From Microlunatus capsulatus (GTDB lineage Bacteria > Actinomycetota > Actinomycetes > Propionibacteriales > Propionibacteriaceae), in assembly GCF_017876495.1 (NCBI RefSeq), contig NZ_JAGIOB010000001.1, forward strand, positions 2,604,001 to 2,668,000: DNA of 64,000 nucleotides. Direction: 5' to 3'. The notes below the pieces were generated by a model, which saw only the letters and a program-made list of their open reading frames with translations, made no database searches and was not told where the DNA came from. Positions within the stretch are counted from its first letter, which is position 1. Every line of letters begins with the position of its first letter. The position numbers were made by a program, and so were the translations under genes. Shown piece by piece: positions 31,548 through 53,880 of the stretch.

Positions 31548-31635
31548 GGTGGCGTGTCTGAGCGGCCTAAAGAGCGCGCCTCGAAAGCGCGTGAGGGTAA
31601 AACCTCCGAGAGTTCAAATCTCTCCGCCACCGCCA
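31548..31635 (+). tRNA. tRNA-Ser (anticodon CGA)
   Basis: The acceptor stem GGTGGCG pairs with CGCCACC (31625-31631). Anticodon stem CGCGC/GCGCG holds the loop CTCGAAA, whose middle triplet is CGA (reads UCG). A long variable arm (GAGGGTAAAACCTC) is typical of serine tRNAs, and GAGAG-TTCAAATC-CTCTC forms the T arm. CCA is encoded at 31633-31635. The 3' half, from the anticodon loop on, is duplicated at 53823 and is the integration site of the mobile element. Confidence 0.95.
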
Positions 31636-31637
31636 GC
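31580..31637 (+). repeat. attL: 58-bp direct repeat in the tRNA-Ser 3' half
   Basis: The 58 bases from CTCGAAAG (anticodon loop) to GCCAGC are identical to 53823-53880. The repeat restores an intact tRNA on this side, as expected for integration into a tRNA 3' end. Confidence 0.92.
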
Positions 31638-34385: not shown

Positions 34386-35657
34386 CTACTGGGGTAGCCC
34401 TCGGCCGGCAGCAGGAGCTGGTGCAGGAACGTCCTTCTGACTCGCCCAGAGGAGGCTGTCGAGCCTAGCCGCTAGGTCCGTCTGAATGGGCGCGATGACA
34501 TGGGCATATCGGCTGACCATCGCCGTCGTCGACCAGCCAAGCACGCTCATGATGGTGCGCTCATGCACCCCGAGGAGCAGGAGCACGGTCGCGGCGGTGT
34601 GCCGCGCGTCGTGCAGCCGGCCGTCCCTGACGCCGCCGGCCACGAGGAGCTTCTTCCACCGGTCCCAGTCAGTTCTCGGGTTGATCGGCTCGCCGAGCTC
34701 TGTGGCAAAGATCCATCCCTGGTTCAGCCACAGCTGGCCGGCCGTCTGCCGCTCGAGCTCCTGGGTGGCGGCGTGGGCCCGAAGCAGATCCAGGATGGCC
34801 GCCGGGAGAGGGACGAACCGCTTGCCCGCCTTCGACTTGGTGGTGTCGGCGTCCGGACGAAGCGCCTGCCGCTGCGGGCAGTGGCCCCCGTACTTATGGG
34901 CACAGCTGCCGCCGCAGCCGTGGGCCCATCGAGGCCGGACACGGCTACGCCTGATGGTGAGAATGGCGCGATCCCAGTCGACGTCCTCCCACTTCAGGCC
35001 GAGCGCCTCGCCCTGGCGAAGCCCGAGGGCGAGGGCGACGACCCAGCGGGTGCCGTTGCGTTCCTGGCCGGCAGCGGCGAACAGCAGTTGGACCTCGGCG
35101 ACCGTGTACGGCTCCACCTCGTGGTCCTCGACGGTCGGTGTCTTGGCCAACTCAGCGGGGTTTCGGGTGATGTAGCCGCGTCGAACGGCCTCGTTCAGCG
35201 CCGCCCGGAGCGTCCGGTGGACCTGGTGAACTCGCCCGGGACTCATCAGCGTGCCGCGCCGGGTCGGCAGCTTGAGCATGGCGACGTAGAGCCGTTCCAG
35301 GTGTTCGGGCTTGAGGGCGTCGAGCCGGTGGCGGCCGAGGCCGGGGACCAGGTGTTTGCGCACCGCGGCCCGATAGCCCTCGTAGGTATCTTGCTTGACG
35401 AAGGGTCGGGCGATGTTCTCCAGCCAGTGTTCAAGCCAGTCCTCGACCGTCCACCGCTCTGACACCTTCCCGAGCTGGCCCTGGTCCCGCGCTTTCTCGA
35501 GCGCCCTCACCTTCTCGACGACCACGGACTTGGAGCGGGACATGACGTGCCGCCTATCGACCCGTCCCTCCTCGGTCAGACCGACAGTGACGCGACCGTG
35601 CCAGTGCCCGTCGGCGCCCTTGTAGATCGTCGAGCGCCGGTTGCCCTGGCGCGTCAT
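34386..35657 (-). CDS. int: AICE tyrosine recombinase (integrase)
   Basis: The 423-residue protein has an AP2-like arm-binding N-terminus (STIYKGADGHWHGRVTVG), a SAM-like core-binding domain (WTVEDWLEHWLENI), and a catalytic domain. Active residues are Arg214 (LGLRQGEALG), His349 and Arg352 (RLHDARH), and Tyr384 (VSRYAHV). A Cys/His-rich insert (WAHGCGGSCAHKYGGHC, ~residues 245-260) suggests an extra zinc site. It would recombine the tRNA-Ser attB with the element's attP. Its start overlaps the excisionase gene end (ATGA). Confidence 0.95.
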   Translation of the reverse strand: MTRQGNRRSTIYKGADGHWHGRVTVGLTEEGRVDRRHVMSRSKSVVVEKVRALEKARDQGQLGKVSERWTVEDWLEHWLENIARPFVKQDTYEGYRAAVRKHLVPGLGRHRLDALKPEHLERLYVAMLKLPTRRGTLMSPGRVHQVHRTLRAALNEAVRRGYITRNPAELAKTPTVEDHEVEPYTVAEVQLLFAAAGQERNGTRWVVALALGLRQGEALGLKWEDVDWDRAILTIRRSRVRPRWAHGCGGSCAHKYGGHCPQRQALRPDADTTKSKAGKRFVPLPAAILDLLRAHAATQELERQTAGQLWLNQGWIFATELGEPINPRTDWDRWKKLLVAGGVRDGRLHDARHTAATVLLLLGVHERTIMSVLGWSTTAMVSRYAHVIAPIQTDLAARLDSLLWASQKDVPAPAPAAGRGLPQ

Positions 35658-35896
35658 GCGGCGTCGCCGCCGCGGTTACCGCGTAGCTGGTCGAGGAAGG
35701 TCACCAGGGCGTCGGCAGGCACGCGGCGGAGCCGGCCGATGCGAACCGACTCGACGGCGCCGGAGCTGACGAGGGCGTACATCACAGTGCGTCCGATACC
35801 GAGTCGCTGAGCGGCCTCCTCGACGGTCAGCACCAGGGGAAGCGAACTGGCAGCCGGACGGATGGGGAACAGGGCGGTGAGCTCGTCGTCGGTCAT
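35654..35896 (-). CDS. xis: Excisionase (MerR/HTH_17-type)
   Basis: The 80-residue protein has a winged-HTH excisionase core (VLTVEEAAQRLGIGRTVMYALVSSGAVESVRIGRLRRVPADALVTFLDQL). GAGGAG precedes ATG 35896 by eight bases. The stop overlaps the integrase start, so the two are coupled. Xis binds the att ends and turns the recombinase towards excision. A GTG three codons upstream is possible but too close to the RBS. Confidence 0.9.
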   Translation of the reverse strand: MTDDELTALFPIRPAASSLPLVLTVEEAAQRLGIGRTVMYALVSSGAVESVRIGRLRRVPADALVTFLDQLRGNRGGDAA

Positions 35897-35909
35897 CTCT
35901 GACACTCCT

Positions 35910-37265
35910 CTAGGCCGTGCTGCAGGTGGGGTGGGTGTGGGTGCCGTCGTCGTAGCTGAGCGGTTCGCGGCAGCTGATGCAGACGGCCGGTGAGGTCGAG
36001 GTCGGGTACCCGTCCCATCCGTCCCGCCGTCCCGCAGGCGTGGTTCTGGGACGGTTGGACGGTCGTGGGACGGATGACCCGTCCCAGGAGCCGCTATCCG
36101 TCCCAAGTTCGCGCTCGTGGGACGGCGGGACGGATGGGACGGGAAGGCCGCCCGGGTGAGCCGGAGGGCAGTAGCGGGACCAAGCGTCGGCGAAGGTCTC
36201 GGCGAGGTAGCCCTTGGTCTGGGAGCCGTCCTCCCATCGGCGGTTTGCCGAGCTGATGCCGAAGTCGCGGAGCATTATGCCGAGGGATCGTCCGGTAAGC
36301 CCATCGTGGCCGAGGGTCGCCCAGGGCGCTTCGTCGTCGTCGCGGAGTCGGCTGACGAGGGTGGCGGTCGGTAGGCCGGCTGCGGCGCCGAACGCGGTGC
36401 GGCAGTCCATCAGCAGCCGGACGCGTAGGGAAACGTGCTCTTCGTCGCTGTCGCCGTTGCTCAGGGCCAGGCAGGCCATCCGGGCGGTTGCGGGCCAGTG
36501 GCCGCCAGCGAGGTCGGCGACGGCGACGAGTGGCTCCCAGGTGTCGGCCGCCCTGTCCTCGACCGGGAGGGCGGGGACGGCCGCGCTGAGCTGGTCCAAC
36601 TGGGCGCGGACCCACTGGTGCAGCTCAGACTTGATCCCGCTGAGAGCTGGACCATCGCGGCGGGCTCGGAACGGCTGGACCGTCTCGTCTGGTGCTCGCC
36701 GCCGCATCGTGACCAGCACGGCGCGGTCCTCGATCGTGTCGGGCATGTTGCCGATGCCGGCCAGGGCGGCCATGGCGAAGGTGGCGATGCGGTCGACCTC
36801 GCGGCGGGAGGCGTCCCAGCGGATCGCGGGCCGGCCCCGCTGGTGGCCGGCGTTCAGGAGGCCGCGGAGGTCCTCGTGCTCGCCGGCGCGGGGCCCGAAG
36901 ATCGTGTCGGCCTCGTCGATGAGCAGGGTGGGTGGGTCGGTCGGGTTCTCACCGATGGACCGGTAGACGGCTGAGGGGGAGGCGTTGGTCGTCATCAGCG
37001 GGAGGTGACACAGGGCCTCGACCAGGTCGAGCAGCCGGGACTTGCCGCAGCGCTTCTCCGGGGCCTTGATCACCAGTCGCGGGGCGGCGTTCCAGGCAGG
37101 CATGCCGTGAGTGGCGGCCACCCAGAGGACGACCGCGGTGGCGGCTTCGTCGGACGGCATCACGACGTAGCGACGGAGGGCGTTCAGCACCTGGTCCAGC
37201 ACCTCGGCGCCGTCGACGGCGGCGGTCGGCTCACCAGCGGCCGTGGACGCGGTCGGTCTGGTCAC
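35910..37265 (-). CDS. DUF3631-domain replication ATPase of the AICE
   Basis: The 451-residue protein has a Walker A-like motif (KAPEKRCGKSRLLDLV), a Walker B motif (TLLIDEADTIFG), and an RDGPALSGIKSELHQW region typical of DUF3631, found in phage and plasmid replication proteins as the helicase-like partner. The C-terminal ~80 residues are low complexity and end with a Cys/His tail (CISCREPLSYDDGTHTHPTC, zinc-ribbon-like). It overlaps the prim-pol stop (ATGA). The coding region contains the GGGACGG repeat cluster at 36009-36143, so it may also carry the replication origin. Confidence 0.85.
   Translation of the reverse strand: MTRPTASTAAGEPTAAVDGAEVLDQVLNALRRYVVMPSDEAATAVVLWVAATHGMPAWNAAPRLVIKAPEKRCGKSRLLDLVEALCHLPLMTTNASPSAVYRSIGENPTDPPTLLIDEADTIFGPRAGEHEDLRGLLNAGHQRGRPAIRWDASRREVDRIATFAMAALAGIGNMPDTIEDRAVLVTMRRRAPDETVQPFRARRDGPALSGIKSELHQWVRAQLDQLSAAVPALPVEDRAADTWEPLVAVADLAGGHWPATARMACLALSNGDSDEEHVSLRVRLLMDCRTAFGAAAGLPTATLVSRLRDDDEAPWATLGHDGLTGRSLGIMLRDFGISSANRRWEDGSQTKGYLAETFADAWSRYCPPAHPGGLPVPSVPPSHERELGTDSGSWDGSSVPRPSNRPRTTPAGRRDGWDGYPTSTSPAVCISCREPLSYDDGTHTHPTCSTA
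36009..36143. repeat. GGGACGG/CCGTCCC heptamer cluster with a 25-bp perfect inverted repeat
   Basis: The 25 bases 36009-36033 are the exact reverse complement of 36119-36143. Each arm holds three heptamers (for example CCGTCCC at 36010, 36019 and 36027), and the ~85 bp between arms add at least three more, in both orientations. The cluster lies inside the coding sequence of the replication ATPase. Such iteron-like arrays are typical of replication or transfer origins. Confidence 0.65.
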
Positions 37266-38215
37266 GCCGCGCTCCGGTTGCGCGGCCCGGTGCGAGGCGT
37301 CAGGCCGCCGCGGTGCAGACCGCTGGTGATGGTGGCCATGGCCTCGGCGGTGGTGAAGGCGCCGGCGGCGATGTGGTCGGCACAGGCCAAGTGCAGCTGG
37401 TACCGGATCGGCGCCTCGTCGAGGAGGCCGCCGGCCACCAGCTGACCGAGGGCGACGGAGGCGCAGAACAGCGCGTGGTTGCGCTGGCCAGCTCGCGCGG
37501 CGCGTACGGCGTCGACCTCGGCCCTGACCGCGGCGCTGGCGTAGCCGGCCGGGACGGTCCGGCCTGCCACGTGAGGAGGGGAGGCGGAGGAGCCGCCGGC
37601 CCTACGGCTGAGCGCGGCGGTCAGCCAGTCGGGAAGTGGTGCCAGGGGTAGGGCGGCGGTCGTCGTGTAGCGGCGGCCGTCAACTAGCTGCGTGGGTGGT
37701 GCGACGACGTAGCCACCTTGACCACGGGTGTCTATGAGCCAACCGAGGCGGCCGGCGGTGCTGGCGAGCTGGGCGTTCCTGGGGGCTCGGTAGTAGCGGT
37801 GGAAGCCACCCGACGGGGTTGAGACCGTGTGTGTGTCGGGCAGCTCGCGTGCATGCGCCAGCTCGGCCAGCACGTCCTCCCCGGTGACTGCCGCGCGATG
37901 ACGCCACACGGACGGAGCATCAGCACCAGGCTTGGGGCGGTCGGTGTCGATCACGAGCAGCCCTGACGGCCCGCAGGCGATGCCGATGCCGAAGGGGTGC
38001 CGGTTCCAAGCGCGGCTGATCCGCAGTTCGCTGTTCGTCGCTCGCTGCTCCCATCCCTGGTGGCCGTGCCGGCAGAAGGGGTCAGAGCGGTCGCAGCGGG
38101 CCGCTGAGTGGTTGGGGCAGGCCGGCCGCTTGCTGCCGGGCAGGAGAGGGAACACGTGCCAGCCGCGAGCTGCGTACTTGAGAGCGGCTGCGGTCCGTTT
38201 GTTGTGGTCGATCAC
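37262..38215 (-). CDS. Bifunctional primase/polymerase (prim-pol) replication protein
   Basis: The 317-residue protein has the prim-pol N-terminal domain: ALKYAARGWHVFPLLPGSKRPAC, the catalytic Asp pair in LLVIDTDRP, TVSTPSGGFHRYYRAP, IDTRGQGGYVVAPPT. The cysteine/histidine-rich stretch NHSAARCDRSDPFCRHGHQGWE is the usual zinc site. With the DUF3631 ATPase it forms a split RepPP-type replication module. ATG 38215 has TCAACTGTG upstream; no clear Shine-Dalgarno. Its stop overlaps the next gene start. Confidence 0.9.
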   Translation of the reverse strand: MIDHNKRTAAALKYAARGWHVFPLLPGSKRPACPNHSAARCDRSDPFCRHGHQGWEQRATNSELRISRAWNRHPFGIGIACGPSGLLVIDTDRPKPGADAPSVWRHRAAVTGEDVLAELAHARELPDTHTVSTPSGGFHRYYRAPRNAQLASTAGRLGWLIDTRGQGGYVVAPPTQLVDGRRYTTTAALPLAPLPDWLTAALSRRAGGSSASPPHVAGRTVPAGYASAAVRAEVDAVRAARAGQRNHALFCASVALGQLVAGGLLDEAPIRYQLHLACADHIAAGAFTTAEAMATITSGLHRGGLTPRTGPRNRSAA

Positions 38216-38339: not shown

Positions 38340-40502
38340 CTACTTCCCTGGTGGGGAGGCGGTCGATTCGGTAGCGGCGCCGCTACCGGTAGCAGCTGTG
38401 GCGGGTGCCTCAGAGGTGTCGGGCGGCACGTCGTCGCGGTCGCCCAGGGCCCCCGCGAGGGTGGCGCGGGAGGGGCCGCGGCGGTTCACGGGGCGGCCAT
38501 CGAAGACCCGCTTCACCTGGATCGAGCGGAGCCCATGAGGACGGACGGCGGCCGAGACCTGCTCGCCGGTCCACGCGCCGTAGAGGCCGGGGTGAGCCGC
38601 GCTCAGGCGGTCGGCCAGATCGTCCCACCAGACCTTGTCCTCCTCAAGTGGCCAGGCCGCCGCCAGATGGTCCAGCACCGAGGACGTGTCGGTGTCGGGC
38701 TCGGGGTCGAGCCCTGCTGCGTGGCCGGTCAGGAGGCCCGCAGTAAGTCGAGCTGCGCGAGCGCGTGCGACGACGGGCTCGGCGGCCGGGGCATCGAGGT
38801 AGGCCACGCGGACGATGACTGGTTCGTCGCCCTCGCCGGCCAGGAAGCCGACGCCGCGATCGGTGCGGGCGAAGGTGGTTGTCCGGACGCCGGCCTTGTA
38901 CATGCTCGTGCCGAGCACCATGTCGTTCTCGACCTGGCCGGCGACTTTGAGGCAGAACCGCAGGACGGCGTTGGAGGAGATCCCGGTGGGGAGGCTCTTG
39001 GCGTCGACGCGCTGGGTGGCCAGGAGGACGATGATGCCGGCGGCCGGGCCACGCTTGCCGAGGTCGGTCACGAGGGCGACGGTCTCGGGGTCGTCGTCGA
39101 AGGCGAGCTGGCACTCGTCGATCACGAGCACGACCGGCCAGAGCCCGAGCTCGCGGCGGTCGGACAGGGCGCGGGTCACTTTGCCCTCGGGGCACACCTC
39201 CCGGGGGAGGCTGCGCAGCTGCTTGTAGCGCCGGCCCATATCGGCGTGGATCGCCCGGAGGTCGGCCTTGAAGTAGCTCAGGTCGTCGGGGTCGTCGCCC
39301 ACCCGGAAGCGGTGGGCGACCGGCTCGATGGCGAGGAAGTCGGCGCCACCTTTGAGGTCGTAGACGTGCAGCTCGGCGGTGGGGTCGAGCGCGGCGGCCA
39401 GCGTGAGCAGGCGGAGCAGGAACGTCTTCCCCATCCGGGGCAGGGCGCCGATGACCATCAGCGCGAACACGAGGGTCACGGTGACCGGCCGGCCCCGGGG
39501 GTCGGCGCCGAAGGTGACGGGCGCGAAGAGGTCGACCCGTCCAGCCTTGCTTAGCGGCCAGGGAACGGGCTTCGCCTTGCTCATCGGCTTGTCGCCCACC
39601 CACAAGATGAGCCGGCCGGCGTGGGTGTCGTGGTCGGTCGAGGGCCAGACCGAGGAGAGCGGCCGGCGTAGGCCCGAGGCGAGCCGGTCGCGGCGCTCGA
39701 TCACGTCGCCGGCCGTGACTCCGGGCGGCAGGTCGAGGTCAGCGCGGAAGCCGGGGCCGTCCCGAACGACAGGCGACGGGAACCGGACCGCGCTCTCCCC
39801 GCCGCGGGTGATGGCCTTGTTCAGCTCGCCGATCCCAAGCGACCCGAGCGCGGTCAGGATGAGGTCAGCCGTCAGCCGAGGGACAGCTTCGGAGTCGACC
39901 GCTCGGGAGGTGACCGGCCGGTCGGGTGACCGGCCGAGCAGTCCGAGCAGCGAGAGGAGGCCGACGGTGCCCGCGAGCAGACCGCCCGGAGTCGCCGCCT
40001 GCGTGCCGCTCCACACGATCAGGCCGGCTAGTACCAGGACCACCGCGGAGAGCCCGGCGCGACCGGAAGCTGTCCGTCGGTGCTGCTCGCTCAGCCGCAG
40101 GAACACGGCGGGGTCGGCGCCCGGCGCGGTCATCTGAGCGCGCACAGTTCGACCGTCAGCGTCGAGCGCCCAGGAGAACCAGCCACGGGTTAGCCGAGCC
40201 AGTCCTAGAGGGGAGCGCGCCGTCAGTCGCAGCCAGTAGAGCGGGAGCCGCAGCGCATGAAATGCGGCGACGTGAGCGGAGCGCCTGGCATTCCATGCGG
40301 CAGCGTCACGGAAGGCGGTGCGCGAGTGAAGCCAGGACGGGAGGACCGGAAGGGGCTCGGTCGGAGGACCGGCGCCACCGCGACTGTCGACGAGGGGCGG
40401 CTTGGCAGCGACGGCCGGTCCGCCTTGAGGCTCGACGAGCTGGACCAGCGGGGGAGCCGGCTCCGCTGGGGCCGCCGGGTCGCCCATAGCCGGCTCGGCC
40501 AT
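38340..40502 (-). CDS. FtsK/SpoIIIE-family (TraB-like) conjugative DNA translocase
   Basis: The 720-residue protein has an N-terminal proline-rich region, two hydrophobic helices near residues ~165-210, and a C-terminal motor. Walker A is ALPRMGKTFLLRLL (Lys359), Walker B is WPVVLVIDECQLAF, with LATQRVDAKSLPTGISSNAV typical of FtsK/TraSA. A winged-helix-like tail follows. One such hexamer moves double-stranded plasmid DNA between mycelia in AICEs. The start TGATG overlaps the stop of the small membrane protein gene. Confidence 0.93.
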   Translation of the reverse strand: MAEPAMGDPAAPAEPAPPLVQLVEPQGGPAVAAKPPLVDSRGGAGPPTEPLPVLPSWLHSRTAFRDAAAWNARRSAHVAAFHALRLPLYWLRLTARSPLGLARLTRGWFSWALDADGRTVRAQMTAPGADPAVFLRLSEQHRRTASGRAGLSAVVLVLAGLIVWSGTQAATPGGLLAGTVGLLSLLGLLGRSPDRPVTSRAVDSEAVPRLTADLILTALGSLGIGELNKAITRGGESAVRFPSPVVRDGPGFRADLDLPPGVTAGDVIERRDRLASGLRRPLSSVWPSTDHDTHAGRLILWVGDKPMSKAKPVPWPLSKAGRVDLFAPVTFGADPRGRPVTVTLVFALMVIGALPRMGKTFLLRLLTLAAALDPTAELHVYDLKGGADFLAIEPVAHRFRVGDDPDDLSYFKADLRAIHADMGRRYKQLRSLPREVCPEGKVTRALSDRRELGLWPVVLVIDECQLAFDDDPETVALVTDLGKRGPAAGIIVLLATQRVDAKSLPTGISSNAVLRFCLKVAGQVENDMVLGTSMYKAGVRTTTFARTDRGVGFLAGEGDEPVIVRVAYLDAPAAEPVVARARAARLTAGLLTGHAAGLDPEPDTDTSSVLDHLAAAWPLEEDKVWWDDLADRLSAAHPGLYGAWTGEQVSAAVRPHGLRSIQVKRVFDGRPVNRRGPSRATLAGALGDRDDVPPDTSEAPATAATGSGAATESTASPPGK

Positions 40503-40705
40503 CACTGCACCGCCGAACTGAAGGCACGCACGACCGAGTTCGACAACGAGTTGAGGCCGGACAGGATCGGCGGTCCGACGGTGGTCGAGGCCAGCGCGAG
40601 ACCGAACAGCACTCCGACGATGACGCCGGAGACCTTCTGCTTGCCCCACCGCACCAGACCGAAGGCGAGGAGACCGAGCAGGAGGACCAGGGGGATGGAG
40701 AGCAC
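40502..40705 (-). CDS. Small membrane protein of the transfer operon (Spd-like)
   Basis: The 67-residue protein has two hydrophobic helices (LVLLLGLLAFGLVRWGKQ and VSGVIVGVLFGLALASTTVG). GTG 40705 follows AAAGGA. It ends within the TGATG overlapping the translocase start. Small spd membrane proteins in pSAM2-like elements help plasmid spread; position and size fit, but sequence similarity is not diagnostic. Confidence 0.7.
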   Translation of the reverse strand: MLSIPLVLLLGLLAFGLVRWGKQKVSGVIVGVLFGLALASTTVGPPILSGLNSLSNSVVRAFSSAVQ

Positions 40706-40800
40706 GAGTGTTCCTTTCGAGGGGTGCCGGCGCCGGTTGCGACCGGTCAGGGGTGCTCGGCCGGGGGGATGCCGGGGACGAGCTATGGCAGTTAGAGTCA

Positions 40801-40854
40801 GGACCAAGAGAGACCCATGAGTGGACCATAAGCATACCAAGAGGGGACCGTCAA
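40801..40854. promoter_or_regulatory. Phased ACC-containing repeats, candidate operator of the GntR regulator
   Basis: Five imperfect decamers (starts near 40801, 40811, 40823, 40834 and 40845; for example GGACCAAGAG, GGACCATAAG, ATACCAAGAG) recur at 10-12 bp, about one helical turn. They lie between the divergent transfer operon and the GntR gene. Confidence 0.45.
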
Positions 40855-40860
40855 CGACCG

Positions 40861-41205
40861 ATGCCGAAACCTCCCGTACGTGCGCACGAGCTCACGGCCC
40901 AGCTGGCGACGCAGATTCGGGCTGGGGAGCCAGCGCCTGGTTCGTGGCTGCCGTCTGAGCGGCAGCTGGCCGAGGCTCACGCCGTCAGCCGCACGACTGC
41001 TCGCGCCGCCCTGCAGAACCTCGCCGAGCTCGGCTTGGTGCGGGCGGTGCCCGGCTCCGGTGTGCAAGTGCAGCAAGTCGCGGAAAGCGTCACCGAACCC
41101 GAGATGCAGCGCACACTCGACCAGATCAGCGTGCAGCTCGACGAGATCAAGGCTCGACTGGCCCGACTCGAGGCGGCCGCCGGCGATGGCGAGCCGACGG
41201 CTTGA
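40861..41205 (+). CDS. GntR-family regulator of the AICE (KorSA-like)
   Basis: The 114-residue protein has the GntR winged helix (AQLATQIRAGEPAPGSWLPSERQLAEAHAVSRTTARAALQNLAELGLVRAVPGSGVQV) and a short C-terminal coiled coil (MQRTLDQISVQLDEIKARLARLEAA), without an effector domain. Such short GntR proteins (KorSA in pSAM2) repress transfer genes. ATG 40861 has no strong Shine-Dalgarno. It is divergent from the transfer operon, with phased repeats between. Confidence 0.85.
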   Translation: MPKPPVRAHELTAQLATQIRAGEPAPGSWLPSERQLAEAHAVSRTTARAALQNLAELGLVRAVPGSGVQVQQVAESVTEPEMQRTLDQISVQLDEIKARLARLEAAAGDGEPTA

Positions 41206-43046: not shown

Positions 43047-44822
43047 ATGACACCGGTCGGGTTCGAAAACAAGGTGGCCTTCGTTTGGAAGGTTGCTGAC
43101 AAGCTGCGTGGCACCTTCAAGCAGCACGAGTACGGATCGGTCATGCTGCCCCTGCTCGTCCTGCGGCGCATGGACGCCGTGCTGGCGCCCACCAAGGAGG
43201 CCGTAGTCGCCAAGGCCGCCGGAATGGCGGCCATCGGGGAGGGTCAGGACGCCATCCTCAAGGCGGTCGCAAAGCAGCGGTTCTACAACACCTCACCCCT
43301 CACGTTCTCGTCGATGCTCAGCGACGATAAGAACCTGGTCGAGCAGCTCGCTGGCTACATCCGCCGACTCTCGACGGACGCATACGCTGTCATGGAGGCG
43401 TACAACGTCGACGACAAGATCACCCGCATGGACCGCGCCGGGATTCTCTACGCCGTACTCTCCAATTTCGCCGACCTAGATTTGCGGCCGAGTGTGGTCA
43501 GTAACGAGGCGATGGGCTACATCTTCGAGGAGCTGCTACGTAAGTTCTCAGAGATGAGCAATGAGACGGCCGGGGAACACTACACTCCGCGCGAAGTCAT
43601 CACGCTCATGGTCGAGTTGCTGTTGGATGAGAAGACCTCGTCAGAGCTGACCCAGAACCCTAAGCCCGTCCGCACCGTCTACGATCCCGCGGCTGGCACC
43701 GGCGGCATGCTGATGGGGGCCCTGCATCAGATCATGGAGCGCAACCCCAACGCCGTAGTCAAGGTCTACGGCCAGGAACTCAACGATGAGACCTGGGCCA
43801 TCGCGCAGTCAGACCTAATGATGCAGGATATCGAGCCAAACCAGATGGCCAATGGCAACAGCCTCACCGCCGACGCTTTCGACCGCGCCTTCGACTTCAT
43901 TCTGGCCAACCCGCCCTATGGGGTCGACTGGAAGAGCTATGCCGGGCCGATCAAGGATGAGCACGCCGCCTTGGGCCACTCTGGCCGATTCGGCGCTGGG
44001 TTGCCGCGCGCATCGGATGGGTCGCTACTCTTCCTGCAGCACATGCTTTGGAAGATGAAGCCGACCGGCTCGCGAGTCGGCATCGTGCTCTCGGGCTCGC
44101 CACTGTTCTCCGGCCAAGCCGGATCAGGGGAGTCGGAGATCCGCCGATGGATCCTAGAGAACGACTGGCTTGAAGGGATCGTCGCGTTGCCGGATCAGAT
44201 GTTCTACAACACCGGAATTTCGACGTACGTGTGGATCCTGACTAACAAGAAGGCGGAGGCCGACCGGGGCCGAGTGAGGTTGATTGACGGACGCGCACTC
44301 GGCACGAAGATGCGGAGGTCGCTCGGCGACAAGCGCAAGGAACTCACACCGGAGGCGATCGCCGAGATCGCTCAACTCTACGGCGGCGCTGGTGGCGAGT
44401 TCGCCAACGAGGCGCGGGTCAAGATGTTGGAACGGGAGACATTCGGTTTTCAGCGAATCACCGTCGAGCGACCGTTGGTAGACGAGAACGGTGCTCCCCG
44501 GCTGAAGAAGGGTAAGGCGCAGCCGGACGCTGGCCTCCGTGACCAGGAGAACGTACCACTGCCGGCCGGATGGTTTGACCTTGGCGAGCACGAGCGCAGC
44601 AAGGCGTTGTACGAGGCCGCGGAGCAGCACCTGACAGACGAAATCCACCCTTACGCACCCGACGCCTGGATTGATCACACGAAAACCAGGATAGGTGTCG
44701 AGATTCCCTTCAACCGACAGTTTTACGTCTACACGCCGCCGCGGCCGGTGGAGGAGATTGCCTCCGAAATCAAGGAATTGGAGGGCCAGATCCAATTGTG
44801 GATGAGCGGGGTGGAGCTGTGA
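43047..44822 (+). CDS. hsdM: Type I restriction-modification methyltransferase subunit
   Basis: The 591-residue protein has an N-terminal HsdM helical domain (VWKVADKLRGTFKQHEYGSVMLPLLVLRRMD), SAM-binding DPAAGTGG (Asp213) and catalytic NPPYG (Asn288), the N6-adenine methylase motif. FDFILANPPYG and GIVLSGSPLFSGQAGSGESEIR follow typical HsdM order. GAGAGGGATCAG precedes ATG 43047. The stop overlaps hsdS by GTGA. It methylates the recognition site and forms the M2S core with HsdS. Confidence 0.96.
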   Translation: MTPVGFENKVAFVWKVADKLRGTFKQHEYGSVMLPLLVLRRMDAVLAPTKEAVVAKAAGMAAIGEGQDAILKAVAKQRFYNTSPLTFSSMLSDDKNLVEQLAGYIRRLSTDAYAVMEAYNVDDKITRMDRAGILYAVLSNFADLDLRPSVVSNEAMGYIFEELLRKFSEMSNETAGEHYTPREVITLMVELLLDEKTSSELTQNPKPVRTVYDPAAGTGGMLMGALHQIMERNPNAVVKVYGQELNDETWAIAQSDLMMQDIEPNQMANGNSLTADAFDRAFDFILANPPYGVDWKSYAGPIKDEHAALGHSGRFGAGLPRASDGSLLFLQHMLWKMKPTGSRVGIVLSGSPLFSGQAGSGESEIRRWILENDWLEGIVALPDQMFYNTGISTYVWILTNKKAEADRGRVRLIDGRALGTKMRRSLGDKRKELTPEAIAEIAQLYGGAGGEFANEARVKMLERETFGFQRITVERPLVDENGAPRLKKGKAQPDAGLRDQENVPLPAGWFDLGEHERSKALYEAAEQHLTDEIHPYAPDAWIDHTKTRIGVEIPFNRQFYVYTPPRPVEEIASEIKELEGQIQLWMSGVEL

Positions 44823-46063
44823 CGGAGATGACACGTCTGGACCGAGTAGCAACGGTCCATGCGCGGATCGGCTGGAAGGCGCTGACGGCCGACGAGTACG
44901 TCGACGATGGATTTGCTTTTCTCTCTACACCGAACATCAAGCAATCAGTAATCGATTATACGAATGTCAACTTCATCTCTGACTTTCGCTACACGGAGTC
45001 CCCGGAACTTCAATTGCAGATCGGCGACGTGCTGCTTGCGAAGGATGGCAGCACGCTGGGTATCGCAAACTGTGTGCGCCACTTGCCGAGGCCTGCAACG
45101 GTCAATGGCTCGATCGCAGTTCTTCGACCCTTCAACGTGGAATCCCGGTACCTAATGTACTGGCTACAAGCCAGCCCGATTCAGGCGCAGATTCAGCAGC
45201 TCAAGGATGGGATGGGTGTGCCGCACCTATTCCAGCAGGACATACGAAAGCTTCAGGTGCCGGAGTTGAATCGCGGCGATCAGAGGCGCATCGCGGATCT
45301 TCTCGACAACCGAATCGCTCTGATTGACCGGATCGTCGCTGCCCGCCGCGAGCAGATCGGAAAGTTGGTGCAAGCGCGAGAGGCTCATCTGCAGCAGCTG
45401 CACGACAACTTGGTCAGCCAGTACGGCGAGTGTCGTCTTGGGTACCTCCTCGTCGGCCTTGAGCAAGGATGGTCACCCCAGGCAGACTCCGTCCCAGCTG
45501 CACCGCAAGAGTGGGGAGTAATGCGTTCGGGCTGTGTGAACGGCGGACTCTTTCGGCCAGACGACAACAAACGGCTCCCAGATGGTCTTGAGCCTCGGCC
45601 CGAATACGAAATCCGATCCGGAGACTTGCTGATGTCGCGCGCGAGTGGGTCCTTAGACCTTATCGGGAGCGTTGCGGTTGTGCCAGGCGGCACGCGTTCC
45701 CGGCTACTGCTATGTGACAAGATCTATCGAATCGCACCCGCAGAGGGTTGGGATGCCAGGTATCTCGCGCACATAATGCGCACCCGGAGGAGTCGTGAGG
45801 GGATCCGGCTTGGAGTTAGTGGAGCCGAAGGAATGGCTAATAACCTGCCCTCCGGTGTCGTTCGTGATTTGCGCATTCCTTTGGTCCCCAGTGTGCGGCA
45901 GCCGGAGATCATTGACCGCGCTGAAGCAATTCACAAGAGGGAAGCCGTGGTAACGGCCGGACTCACCCGATCGATAAGATTGCTAATCGAGTACAGATCT
46001 TCTCTAATAACGGCCGCCGTGACCGGCGCGACCGATATGCAGCAAGACAGGATCCTGACATGA
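44819..46063 (+). CDS. hsdS: Type I restriction specificity subunit
   Basis: The 414-residue protein has two target-recognition domains, each followed by a long central or C-terminal helix (RIADLLDNRIALIDRIVAARREQIGKLVQAREAHLQQL and the terminal EIIDRAEAIHKREAVVTAGLTRSIRLL). TRD1 begins around VHARIGWKALTADEYVDDG. It sets the DNA site of the complex. The gene is noticeably less GC-rich than its neighbours, as is common for hsdS. GTG 44819 overlaps the hsdM stop; ATG 44828 is an alternative. Confidence 0.93.
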   Translation: MTEMTRLDRVATVHARIGWKALTADEYVDDGFAFLSTPNIKQSVIDYTNVNFISDFRYTESPELQLQIGDVLLAKDGSTLGIANCVRHLPRPATVNGSIAVLRPFNVESRYLMYWLQASPIQAQIQQLKDGMGVPHLFQQDIRKLQVPELNRGDQRRIADLLDNRIALIDRIVAARREQIGKLVQAREAHLQQLHDNLVSQYGECRLGYLLVGLEQGWSPQADSVPAAPQEWGVMRSGCVNGGLFRPDDNKRLPDGLEPRPEYEIRSGDLLMSRASGSLDLIGSVAVVPGGTRSRLLLCDKIYRIAPAEGWDARYLAHIMRTRRSREGIRLGVSGAEGMANNLPSGVVRDLRIPLVPSVRQPEIIDRAEAIHKREAVVTAGLTRSIRLLIEYRSSLITAAVTGATDMQQDRILT

Positions 46064-49244: not shown

Positions 49245-50750
49245 GTGAGCGTCGCGCCTGGGGCACCGTTGTGGTCAGGACCCGGCCCGAATGCTCTGGG
49301 CGGTCGGTACCCGGGCCGGTATCCGTTAGCGGTGGAGTCGTTCGCGTTGGCGGCGGTGGCGGAGCTGCTGCCTGGGGCGACGACGGTCACCCCGCACGCC
49401 CGGTACTTCGCGTTGCATGCTCTGGTCGGCGTCGAGGGTGATGAGCAGGATCTTGGCGTCGAGGAACGGCTGGCGCTGCTGCGGCGGTGCGAGGTGGTGG
49501 TTGGCGCAGCCGCCACCATGCACGCCCGGTTACGTCCGGAGCTGCATGAGGGGTTGGCGGCGGCTCACGGTGCGGACGTGATCGCCCCGCAACTGGTCGA
49601 GGGTGGGACGGTCGATGTATCAGGGCTGGCCGAGCCCGGCCAGTACGCCGCATCGGCTCGAGGCTTCCTGGGCCCCTACTTGGCCAGTGAACGCACCCTC
49701 GGGTTAGTCGTCGATGTCGGCTCGGCGGTCGGCGCCGGCCCGCGCGCTCGGCGCCGTCTGCTGCGGGACGCGTTTCCCGACCTCCTCAGTCTGGCCGGCC
49801 GGGACAGTGTGGCGGTGGCTGAGTTGCAGGATCGGCCCGAGTGGTGCGTGTGCGGGGTCTCCGCGGCGGAGCGGGACTGGCTGCGCAGCGTCTTCGTGGC
49901 GCCGGAGATGCCGGCTGTGAGCGACGAGCGACGGTCGCAGACACTGCGCCTGCTGGCCCGGCTGGTCGAGCTGCACACGCCAAGGCAACTGACGGTCCAA
50001 GCCGCGGAGAAGTTGGTTAGCGACCGTGCAACGTACACCGACTCCGTTGTGGCTGGCCTCGAGGTGGCGGCGGCGTGGCGAGGAGTCATCTTGCGCTCCT
50101 GGTACGTGGAGGCCTGGCGGTCCCTGTGGGCGTGGACGATCAACTCGATGCCGGCGGCGGTGCCGGCCGGTCAGCTCGGCGACCGCCTCGCCGACACCCT
50201 CACCGAGCACCTGACCGCCCCACGGCTGGGTGCGCTGATCGAGGCCCTGCCCGACGGGGTCGGCGCCGACGGGCAGCCGACGGCAGCGGACCGGGAGCCG
50301 CCGATCACCGATCTACCGCGCGGCTGCCGCGAGCTGGCTCAGCTCATCATCGGCGCACGCCGCGCCGGCCGGCTGCCGCAGCGGGTCGCCGACTACTTCG
50401 AGGACCCACTCGCGGAGCGACGGAACCGTCAGCTCACCCCGACCGCCTTCGCGGACTGGTTGGATCAGCGCCGCGATCAGTCGTCCGCGGACGTGGCGCG
50501 CGAGCTCACCGCCATGCTGCTGCACCGCTCCCAGCGGGTGGCGCTGTCCAAGGGCCGATTCCACACCGACGGCTGGAAGATCCCCACCCGCCTGGCCAGC
50601 ATCGACGGCCGGCTCGTCACCGACTCCCTCGAGCCGGGCGGTGGGATCTCACTGCGCTGGGAGACCGCCGCGCAGGTGATGATCGGACTCGGCATCACCT
50701 GCTGGTCCGACACCAAGAACCGCTGGACTCTCACCGACGGCGCACCATGA
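49245..50750 (+). CDS. Unrecognised protein coupled to a PLD-like protein
   Basis: The 501-residue protein is soluble, alanine- and leucine-rich and mostly helical, with a hydrophobic helix-like stretch (SWYVEAWRSLWAWTINSMP, ~residues 285-305). I recognise no domain. GTG 49245 is proposed because TAGCGT stands seven bases upstream (49232-49237); no Shine-Dalgarno is present. An in-frame extension reaches ATG 49134. The stop overlaps the next gene start (ATGA), so the two form a tight pair. It lies 200 bp after hsdR but probably has its own promoter. Confidence 0.65.
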   Translation: MSVAPGAPLWSGPGPNALGGRYPGRYPLAVESFALAAVAELLPGATTVTPHARYFALHALVGVEGDEQDLGVEERLALLRRCEVVVGAAATMHARLRPELHEGLAAAHGADVIAPQLVEGGTVDVSGLAEPGQYAASARGFLGPYLASERTLGLVVDVGSAVGAGPRARRRLLRDAFPDLLSLAGRDSVAVAELQDRPEWCVCGVSAAERDWLRSVFVAPEMPAVSDERRSQTLRLLARLVELHTPRQLTVQAAEKLVSDRATYTDSVVAGLEVAAAWRGVILRSWYVEAWRSLWAWTINSMPAAVPAGQLGDRLADTLTEHLTAPRLGALIEALPDGVGADGQPTAADREPPITDLPRGCRELAQLIIGARRAGRLPQRVADYFEDPLAERRNRQLTPTAFADWLDQRRDQSSADVARELTAMLLHRSQRVALSKGRFHTDGWKIPTRLASIDGRLVTDSLEPGGGISLRWETAAQVMIGLGITCWSDTKNRWTLTDGAP

Positions 50751-53410
50751 CCGTCGGCGCGACCGACAGCAGAGCGCCGGCGACGATGAACCTCGCCCAG
50801 CTCCTCCATACGGTCGCGGCCGGCGACGCGTGGCCGCTTGAGGAGGCGCTGTTCCTCACGTTCGGGTTCGATTCCGGCTTCTTCGAACGCGGGATCCTGG
50901 GCCGCTGCCGCGCCGCCGGCGCGGTGGTCACCGTCATCGCCGACGGTACGGTGTGGGCGCCGGACCCGATTGCGCTGAGGTCGGCTGGGCAGGAGTACCT
51001 CCTCGGTCTTGCCGCGACACCACGGGCGTTCCACCCGAAGCTGATGCTGCTTCAAGGCGGTGACGGCGCCCTGGCCGCGATCGGCTCCGGCAACCTCACC
51101 ACCAGCGGCTGGCAGTACAACACCGAGTTGTGGCGCTGCCTGGAGGCAACAGCGGCGGGCGCCCCCACCCAGCCGCTGCTCGAGCTCGCAGAGTGGCTAG
51201 ACCAGCTCACCACCACCGCCACCTTGGCCGGCCCGCATCGCGACGCGGTCCACAGGTCTACCGACCGACTCCTTGCCCTGCTGACCCGTGTCCCTGAGCA
51301 GTCCAGCACCGTACGGGTGCTACCCCTCGACCGACCTGTCATCGAAGGACTCCCTCAGGGACCCGTCGACGAGCTCCTCCTCGCGGCCCCGTTCATTGAC
51401 CCGGCCGCCGACGCCATCCACGCCCTGCTAAAGCGCCTACAGCCCCGCCAGGCCACGATCGTGCTGCAGGAGCACCGGGGCGTGTTCGACCCCGCCACCC
51501 TCACCTCGGTGCTGGCCGCCGCGACGGGGTCAGTGACCGTTATCGCTGACCGCTCCACCCGTTACCGGCACGCCAAACTCATCGAGTGGCGCACCGGCAC
51601 CCAACGGTGGGCGCTCACGGGCAGCGCGAACCTCACCGGCAGCGCCCTGCTGCGCCCACCCGGGCGGGGCGGCAACATCGAGTTGACAGTCCTCGAGGAG
51701 CTCACCAAACCGGTGTGGCCACCAACAGCTGGCGCCCGAGACCGTGACCGCGAGGTCGTCACCCTGGCCGACCTCCCGGCCCCCGCCGAACCGCACAAAC
51801 CGACCGCGACGGCGACACCGGCGGGCCTTCCGCTGCTGCTCAGTGTCGTCTGGGAGGGCCGTGACCTCGACCTCGAGCTCAGCAAAGCCTGTCCCCCCGA
51901 GGTCGAGGTGCAGTCGCGGAACCATCCCATCGACGGCGAATGGCGCAGCCTCGGCGCCATCCCCGTCGGCGTGCGACGCCACCACCTCCCCGGGGTCGGC
52001 GTCGACGACGTCGCCCACCTCCGACTCAGCACCAGTGGCGTGGACCTGGTCGTCGGGCAGCCCGTCCCGGTCACCAACCTGCCCCGCGCCACCCAGCCTC
52101 CGCTGCTCGGCCCCGGCCAGCGCCGCCGCATCAGCACCGCCGAGGACCTGCTCGGCGACGACCTCGGCTACCTAGCCGCCTTCGCCGACCAACTCACCGC
52201 TCTCGCCAACGAACGCCGCCGCGCCTCCCCCGCCACTACCCGGAGCGCGACCGCCGTCACCGAACGGGTCACCGACCCCGACGACACCCAAGGCGTCGAA
52301 GCGCTGTGGCGGTGGGAGAAGGCCGCCCGCGGCCTGCACGGACCCGCGCTCACCGGTTTCGCGCTCGGCCTCCCACCTGCCGCCCCTGGCGATGCCTGGG
52401 AGGACTTTGACACCCCTGTCGGCGAGCTCGCCACCGACAGCGCGATCACCAGCACCCTCAGCGAGACGATCAGCGACGACACCGACAACGAGCCGGTCGA
52501 CCACCGCCACCAGCAGCCCGCCATGCGCCGCGCCCGCCGCCACTGGGTCCACGGCTACGCCGACCTCGCCCACCGCGAGAACCGCAACCGGCTCCGCACC
52601 CCCAACCCGGCGTCGCACTCACAACTGTCGACCCTGTCCTGGCTCGCCGTCACCCGTCTCGCCCTGGTCTTCTCCTGCGCCGGCAACTGGCCCGACGACG
52701 ACGAGACCCCCGCCCAGCACCTCGCCGAGCTCCTCACCACCCTGTTGGCCGGAGCGTCCGCCGAGGACCACCTCGACGAAGCCGTGGCACTCGCCGCGGT
52801 GGCCGTCGCAGTCGTCCGCCAACGCGCCGGCACCAGCGCCACCGGGCCTGTCGCCGTCGCCGCGCGCCGAGTCGAAGCCGCAGCCCAGCCCGTCTTGACC
52901 CAACACCAGCCGACACCAGCGCTGCTAGCCGAGTACTGCCGCTGCCTGCGCACGCCCGCCGGCCTGCCGCTCGCCCCCGAGACCGTCGACGGCCAGCTCG
53001 ACGCCTGGCTGCACCATCCCCTGCACCGCGCCATCCAGCTCGCCCAGACCCGCGGCTGGGACTGCGTCGAGGCCTCGTCCCAGCTGCTGCAGGTCACCGG
53101 CACCATCAGCGACCCCATCACCGCCGCCCTGGCGCTGCTCGCCGGATCAACCGGGCCGCTCGCCATCGACGCCCGCTCCGCCACCCGGCCGCTGCGCGGC
53201 ATCACCATCTGGGCGTCACCGGACCTGTACACGATCCGGCTCCAGCCCAAACCCCTCTGGGAGCACTACACCCACCCCAACATCGAGGCCATCCAGACCA
53301 GCTGGAGCAACGGCGAACGCAGCCGCTACCGCCAAGCTCACGGCCCCACCCAGCAACCGATCACCGCAGCGCTCCAGTGGCTCGACACCCTCGGCATCGA
53401 CTTGGTTTAG
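50747..53410 (+). CDS. Large phospholipase-D-like (two HxK motifs) protein, probable nuclease
   Basis: The 887-residue protein has two PLD-type half-sites. Site 1 is His96-X-Lys98 (RAFHPKLMLL) with Asn116 in GSGNLTTSG; site 2 is His275-X-Lys277 (YRHAKLIEW) with Asn295 in GSANLTGSA. Both lack the downstream Asp of classic HKD motifs, as in Tdp1-like nucleases. The remaining ~550 residues hold helical segments and no recognised ATPase or helicase. It is translated with the preceding gene through an ATGA overlap. Neighbourhood suggests a DNA-targeting defence effector; this is inference. Confidence 0.75.
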   Translation: MTVGATDSRAPATMNLAQLLHTVAAGDAWPLEEALFLTFGFDSGFFERGILGRCRAAGAVVTVIADGTVWAPDPIALRSAGQEYLLGLAATPRAFHPKLMLLQGGDGALAAIGSGNLTTSGWQYNTELWRCLEATAAGAPTQPLLELAEWLDQLTTTATLAGPHRDAVHRSTDRLLALLTRVPEQSSTVRVLPLDRPVIEGLPQGPVDELLLAAPFIDPAADAIHALLKRLQPRQATIVLQEHRGVFDPATLTSVLAAATGSVTVIADRSTRYRHAKLIEWRTGTQRWALTGSANLTGSALLRPPGRGGNIELTVLEELTKPVWPPTAGARDRDREVVTLADLPAPAEPHKPTATATPAGLPLLLSVVWEGRDLDLELSKACPPEVEVQSRNHPIDGEWRSLGAIPVGVRRHHLPGVGVDDVAHLRLSTSGVDLVVGQPVPVTNLPRATQPPLLGPGQRRRISTAEDLLGDDLGYLAAFADQLTALANERRRASPATTRSATAVTERVTDPDDTQGVEALWRWEKAARGLHGPALTGFALGLPPAAPGDAWEDFDTPVGELATDSAITSTLSETISDDTDNEPVDHRHQQPAMRRARRHWVHGYADLAHRENRNRLRTPNPASHSQLSTLSWLAVTRLALVFSCAGNWPDDDETPAQHLAELLTTLLAGASAEDHLDEAVALAAVAVAVVRQRAGTSATGPVAVAARRVEAAAQPVLTQHQPTPALLAEYCRCLRTPAGLPLAPETVDGQLDAWLHHPLHRAIQLAQTRGWDCVEASSQLLQVTGTISDPITAALALLAGSTGPLAIDARSATRPLRGITIWASPDLYTIRLQPKPLWEHYTHPNIEAIQTSWSNGERSRYRQAHGPTQQPITAALQWLDTLGIDLV

Positions 53411-53822: not shown

Positions 53823-53880
53823 CTCGAAAGCGCGTGAGGGTAAAACCTCCGAGAGTTCAAATCTCTCCGCCACCGCCAGC
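53823..53880 (+). repeat. attR: 58-bp direct repeat (duplicated tRNA-Ser 3' half)
   Basis: Identical to 31580-31637. It lacks the 5' half of the tRNA, so it is a remnant, not a gene. The hairpin terminator of the original tRNA locus follows at 53889-53921. Confidence 0.92.

Follow-up and report, generated by a model that had tools for sequence, protein, structure and literature searches.

The 64,000-nucleotide stretch of the Microlunatus capsulatus genome analyzed here (the window) carries an integrated element of the AICE type, in which a mirror-symmetric array of ten short repeats lies at the end of a DUF3631 (RepAM) replication ATPase gene. Judged from comparative sequence evidence, we consider with good confidence that this array serves the Prim-Pol/RepAM replicon of the element as a cis-acting binding site and, most likely, as its origin of replication. 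The prediction that the DUF3631 protein itself binds the array is held with still higher confidence: the array keeps its position and layout in most DUF3631 loci while the repeated word changes from element to element, and one residue of a predicted winged helix in this protein follows the change.

Host Element and Gene Neighborhood

The element is a 22.3-kb AICE bounded by 58-bp tRNA-Ser att repeats (Table 1), between which it has the integrase, xis, rep and FtsK-like tra genes that define such elements. The Tra assignment was based on similarity to AICE Tra proteins and on weak EccC matches. The DUF3631 gene adjoins the Prim-Pol gene, which is the arrangement of a RepAM/DUF3631–Prim-Pol replicon; according to PMC3218068, DUF3631 corresponds to the RepAM family of AICE replication proteins. 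Among the cargo genes are HsdM- and HsdS-like ones of type I restriction-modification (43047-46063, plus strand), and within the element, at 50714-50805 on the minus strand, ARAGORN reported an unusual tRNA-like gene whose anticodon has two bases.

Table 1. Positions of the features in the window that are discussed in the text.
Feature	Position	Strand	Basis or remark
Attachment-site repeat, 3' part of tRNA-Ser(CGA)	31580-31637	+	Identical 58-bp repeat pair
Tyrosine integrase	34386-35657	-	
HTH_17 excisionase-like protein (Xis)	35654-35899	-	Upstream limit is the ATG at 35899; open frame extends beyond
repAM-type (DUF3631, PF12307) replication ATPase gene, 451 aa, GTG start	35910-37265	-	Pfam E 1.5e-67
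Mirror-symmetric iteron array (proposed origin)	36009-36143	.	Repeat count, arm pairing, position/layout kept in 129/155 relatives
Outer arm, 25 nt	36009-36033	.	Perfect inverted repeat of 36119-36143
Outer arm, 25 nt	36119-36143	.	Partner of 36009-36033
Array sub-groups	Outer triplets 36010-36033 and 36119-36142; inner pairs 36048-36073 and 36079-36104		
C-terminal winged-helix domain of DUF3631 protein, ~residues 277-365, proposed word reader	36171-36437	-	AlphaFold2, Foldseek
Codon of Asn341, strand beta-2 of wing	36243-36245	-	Tracks base 5 of word
Prim-Pol (PF09250) primase-polymerase	37262-38215	-	E 6.9e-45
FtsK/EccC-like translocase, Tra-type	38340-40835	-	Matches below curated cut-offs
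GntR regulator	40708-41205	+	
Attachment-site repeat, identical 58 bp, other end of 22.3-kb element	53823-53880	+	

Geometry of the Array

The array occupies the 3' end of the minus-strand ORF, past residue 365, where the DUF3631 domain ends. Ten exact copies of the heptamer GGGACGG were counted in its 135 bp, five per strand (minus strand: 36010, 36019, 36027, 36079 and 36098; plus strand: 36048, 36067, 36119, 36127 and 36136), while about 0.09 copies would be expected there by chance. The heptamer-to-heptamer spacings (9, 8, 21, 19, 12, 19, 21, 8, 9) are exactly mirror-symmetric. The 65-nt arms (36009-36073 and 36079-36143) are 78% complementary, with perfect pairing of their outer 25 nt, and the DNA fold reached -60.5 kcal/mol (z = -10 against dinucleotide shuffles). 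Over the whole window GGGACGG was not enriched (43 observed, 39 expected), and the signal therefore consists in its clustering: a scan of the other 315-bp frames of the window found at most 6 copies of any both-orientation heptamer, compared to 10 at the array. In a genome search the array proved to be single-copy, the sole further match being the array against itself reversed.

The first-pass annotation had reported at least nine heptamers in both orientations within 135 bp and a 25-bp perfect inverted repeat inside a replication ATPase gene. Its cluster stands, with ten exact copies and perfectly paired outer arms, while the mirror layout, the change of word between elements and the recognition residue of the DUF3631 protein had escaped it.

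Occurrence of the Array Among DUF3631 Relatives

A set of 155 deduplicated DUF3631 loci was examined for the presence of at least five copies of one heptamer, in both orientations, in the 315 bp following the domain, using 155 equal-sized gene-internal and 154 downstream windows, plus shuffles, as controls. The array was present at the same place in 129 loci and was absent by this strict test from 26. None of the gene-internal or downstream control windows had one, and the shuffles gave 1 in 3100, by which chance or GC bias as the cause of the array was ruled out. The array-bearing relatives belonged to Kribbella, Frankia, Micromonospora, Dactylosporangium, Kineosporia, Saccharopolyspora, Streptomyces, mycobacteria and viral contigs; in one family, 116 of the 200 genomes sampled had a DUF3631 match.

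The words varied among the elements (CCGTCCC, CCGTACC, CCGCTAC, CCGCCAC, CGTCAGA, CGGAACC and others) while the layout was kept, and within one element a single word was used throughout in both orientations, as expected of a site read by one protein. The typical layout consists of three or two sites, two inverted ones, two more and then two or three, the commonest forms being >><<>><< and >>><<>><<<, with spacings of 9 within the outer groups, 18 within the inner pairs, 31-34 between these and 11-13 at the center. The spacers paired about the dyad above chance (0.39 against 0.26), a modest extension of the symmetry beyond the words. A constant CAGGTCA/TGACCTG motif was present in 98 of the 129 arrays (76%) and in 9 controls, typically just inside the outer group whatever the word (for example, in L012, L014 and L183), and was absent from the array of the window. 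Locus L024 (2850-3000) had a mixed array of CCGTACC and CCGTCCC sites beside a Thr341 protein, perhaps a word switch in progress. In the few cases of cohabiting elements the words were often, not always, different. A literal heptamer-triplet scan of viral contigs was unspecific, with DUF3631 in only 3 of about 100 loci; one viral contig (L042, 12881-13046) combined a Prim-Pol match and a both-orientation GGGACGG cluster with no DUF3631 match in the stretch examined.

Selection on DNA or on the Protein Tail

The ORF stop split the array in 82 of the 129 loci and preceded it in 9, while in the remaining 38 the array lay wholly inside the ORF. In Streptomyces plasmid forms such as L188 and L189 the gene ended after the first sites and the remainder of the array was intergenic. 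Moreover, the first array sites were read in all three frames across the loci. Such variation in stop and frame indicates that the DNA, and not the protein tail, is under selection, which sustains the earlier suggestion of a selected, iteron-like DNA function: the DNA layout was kept in 129 of 155 loci while reading frame and stop varied. The first-pass annotation had proposed to look for relatives that keep the tail and lose the DNA repeats, and this comparison gave the opposite picture, in which the layout was kept and the tail was reframed or cut by a stop.

The alternative that a low-complexity tail is selected, with the DNA repeats as a by-product of repeated peptides, would be in line with the last GG-type site, nearly always found in the same reading frame, and with a CxxC...C tail retained after the array in some relatives; however, in 91 of the 129 loci the stop splits the array or leaves it outside the ORF, its first site occurs in all frames, and nothing at the protein level would account for a mirror layout or for copies on the opposite strand, leaving this explanation with a practically negligible probability. 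The CxxC...C tail of the window (35913-35990, minus strand; CISCREPLSYDDGTHTHPTC) is common to L012 and L020 and is possibly a small zinc-binding end. The protein end after the array is thus not meaningless, some elements reading through into this tail, yet it does not explain the repeats.

Identification of the Probable Reader of the Word

The mosaic structure of the Kribbella elements made it possible to compare words with individual proteins. Loci L013 and L014 share Xis (98% identity) and Int (90%) and have the words CCGTCCC and CCGTACC, respectively; the words also differ between L028 and L019 (Tra 91% identical) and between L016 and L017 (Prim-Pol 89% identical). Altogether, identities between different-word elements reached 98% for Xis, 86-91% for Tra, 90% for Int and 86-89% for Prim-Pol. 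Near-identical proteins accompanying different words are evidence against each of the four as the reader, and Xis, Int and Prim-Pol were rejected on this ground.

In contrast, residue 341 of the DUF3631 protein was its only column sorting the words perfectly in the discovery set, with Asn in 18 of 18 loci having CCGTCCC and Thr in 9 of 9 having CCGTACC (27/27); the best columns elsewhere scored 0.77 (Prim-Pol), 0.82 (Tra), 0.86 (Int) and 0.89 (Xis). Among the loci added later, 21 of the 22 with N341 had C at base 5, and all 12 with T341 had A (33/34; Fisher p 2.4e-8, in a test treating the loci as independent). The Thr341 locus L224 has the word CCGTAAC, in which A at base 5 is retained, while the single exception, L307, combines N341 with CCGTACC and also has Asp instead of the Arg of its relatives two residues on. 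In 66 loci column 341 scored 0.98 and the next-best column 0.70.

In a tree calculated with column 341 left out, base and residue changed five times each, giving four supported independent pairs, all concordant; in the 66-locus tree each changed 15 times, few of these changes being on strongly supported branches. Codon 341 is located some 100 bp from the array, and linkage alone gives some association; linkage alone would, however, make the neighboring columns track the word too, while equally near columns do not and column 341 stands alone. Within the mycobacterial/viral branch, CGTCAGA and TCCGGAC were accompanied by an Arg/His contrast at the neighboring wing position (4/4 and 3/3). The covariation of residue 341 with base 5 strongly implies binding by the cognate initiator, so that the array is predicted to be the RepAM binding site.

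Predicted Structure of the DUF3631 Protein

The C-terminal domain modeled alone gave a confident winged helix (AlphaFold2 pLDDT 92.3), with residue 341 in strand beta-2 of the wing, and the same winged-helix elements were present in the model of the full protein (pLDDT 74.6). The top Foldseek matches of the domain were mostly winged helices, all of them weak (E 1e-3 or worse), while the whole model gave weak matches to initiator ATPases such as ORC, SaPI PriRep1 and D5/E5. In the family alignment the Walker residues G74 K75 S76 and D117 E118 were invariant or nearly so, and no HxH pair of the kind that a HUH rolling-circle initiator should have was found among the invariant columns.

Proposed Function of the Array

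From the array, its DNA conservation and the residue-base covariation we infer the following sequence of events. Each heptamer would be physically bound by the winged helix at the C terminus of the DUF3631 protein, an AAA-type ATPase, with wing residue 341 reading the variable base. With the two arms occupied in mirror image, the ATPase would come together as two complexes that face each other. These complexes may then open the DNA, at which the adjacently encoded Prim-Pol would prime, so that replication would be theta-type and not rolling-circle. Divergence of the words would make each initiator specific to the origin of its own element. Multiple short repeats in or beside a rep gene, as found here, are characteristic of iteron-type theta origins. 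The GC-skew minima of two related circular plasmids, the only two compared, lay some 240-660 bp past the array. Beside the array itself the averaged AT profile rose only weakly (0.39 vs. ~0.33), and no clear AT-rich region for unwinding was seen.

Iterons frequently act in control as well as in initiation, and the array lies between rep and xis-int genes of the same orientation; it might therefore be an autoregulatory or incompatibility site through which the DUF3631 protein regulates the operon encoding it, the xis-int genes downstream or the copy number, with initiation elsewhere. This role appears rather improbable: several array loci (L024, L031, L032, L036, L037 and L183) have no integrase directly downstream, a large dyad of 8-10 sites resembles an assembly site more than an operator, and the similar inverted repeat of pWTY27 belongs to the minimal replicon (PMC3583192). 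A rolling-circle double-strand origin, whose long inverted repeat would form a hairpin nicked by RepAM as predicted for pMEA300, would accord with the very stable fold of the strand in the window, with the spacer pairing about the dyad, and with PMC3218068, which reports a predicted rolling-circle initiator role and putative nick sites for RepAM proteins. The invariant residues, however, are ATPase motifs (K75, D117, E118) and include no HxH pair, and 8-10 directional sites with a partner Prim-Pol better fit the assembly of an ATPase initiator. A nicking origin is accordingly judged very unlikely, and the P-loop signature makes the rolling-circle prediction for RepAM reported there look doubtful.

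The first-pass annotation had left a choice between a replication and a transfer origin. For the latter, the heptamers would be a clt site recognized by the FtsK-like Tra translocase, comparable to the 7-9-bp repeats in pSVH1, pJV1 and pWTY27; known clt loci do consist of short repeats in arrays to which Tra binds (PMC3583192), and the element encodes a Tra-type protein. The word, however, does not track this protein. Besides near-identical Tra in elements with different words, Tra was only 22-25% identical between some same-word elements, its best column falls short of column 341, and arrays occur in loci with no detected Tra, viral contigs included. The transfer origin was rejected on this decoupling and on the arrays lacking a detectable Tra nearby, and is given only a slim residual chance. 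The replication origin, in turn, has advanced from a possible to the most likely assignment, although sequence comparison points to the reader of the word and not to initiation at this place.

Significance

Inverted-iteron origins beside Prim-Pol genes had already been described in a few plasmids of Streptomyces. To judge from the accessible literature, four points are apparently new: the arrays occur across DUF3631 loci, they overlap the gene of the initiator, each element has its own word, and a recognition residue goes with it. The repeats of one element may nevertheless have been described earlier. We favor, with somewhat better than even confidence, the generalization that actinobacterial DUF3631/Prim-Pol elements have a common origin architecture, in which an element-specific word is read via the wing of the initiator by a readable code (N or T at 341 with C or A, and a similar Arg/His contrast with CGTCAGA and TCCGGAC), and in which repeated word switches yield self-specific replicons able to coexist in one host. 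Since the proposed origin overlaps the coding end of its own initiator, word and reader would stay linked through module shuffling. If the wing code is true, origin specificity becomes predictable and re-addressable from sequence, and origin recognition is reduced to a single-residue, single-base test. A likely origin and its reader are thereby assigned to a large and poorly understood group of mobile elements, whose DUF3631 still carries the name of a domain of unknown function, and which may offer a supply of mutually compatible replicons for actinobacterial genetics.

Comparison With Known Systems

The closest counterpart is the Streptomyces plasmid pWTY27, which replicates bidirectionally and whose RepA, encoded beside the Prim-Pol RepB, footprints an inverted repeat of 105 bp with 5+5 short repeats (PMC3583192). 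Both systems have five repeats per orientation in a mirror-image array adjoining genes for Prim-Pol and a partner Rep. The pWTY27 repeat, however, is non-coding and has the word GTGGGAAC/TTCCCAC, its RepA is described as a hypothetical protein of 522 aa, compared with DUF3631 by description only, and neither word diversity nor a recognition residue was reported for it. The plasmid pFP11 (L316, NC_006911) likewise pairs a Prim-Pol with a partner gene; downstream of the Prim-Pol operon (9633-9879) the heptamer GCGTCCC occurs nine times, in both orientations, and the RepA of this plasmid is reported, in a citation given by PMC3583192, to bind the iterons. Its array is non-coding and less regular, and the 573-aa partner has no detectable similarity to DUF3631; similar arrays therefore extend beyond the DUF3631 Rep family.

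The pMEA300-type AICE replicons share the Rep family, the Prim-Pol association and the AICE organization with the element described here, but differ in the rolling-circle mode predicted for them, and neither an iteron array nor word specificity was found for them in the passages of PMC3218068 consulted. The weak fold matches relate the DUF3631 protein to ORC/Cdc6, SaPI PriRep1 and phage P4 alpha, with which it may share the logic of an ATPase whose C-terminal winged helix sits on repeated sites, although no sequence relationship is shown and all Foldseek E-values were 1e-3 or worse. Finally, the clt loci of Streptomyces conjugative plasmids also consist of clustered 7-9-bp repeats read by a winged helix; the reader there is Tra, which does not track the word at the DUF3631 arrays.
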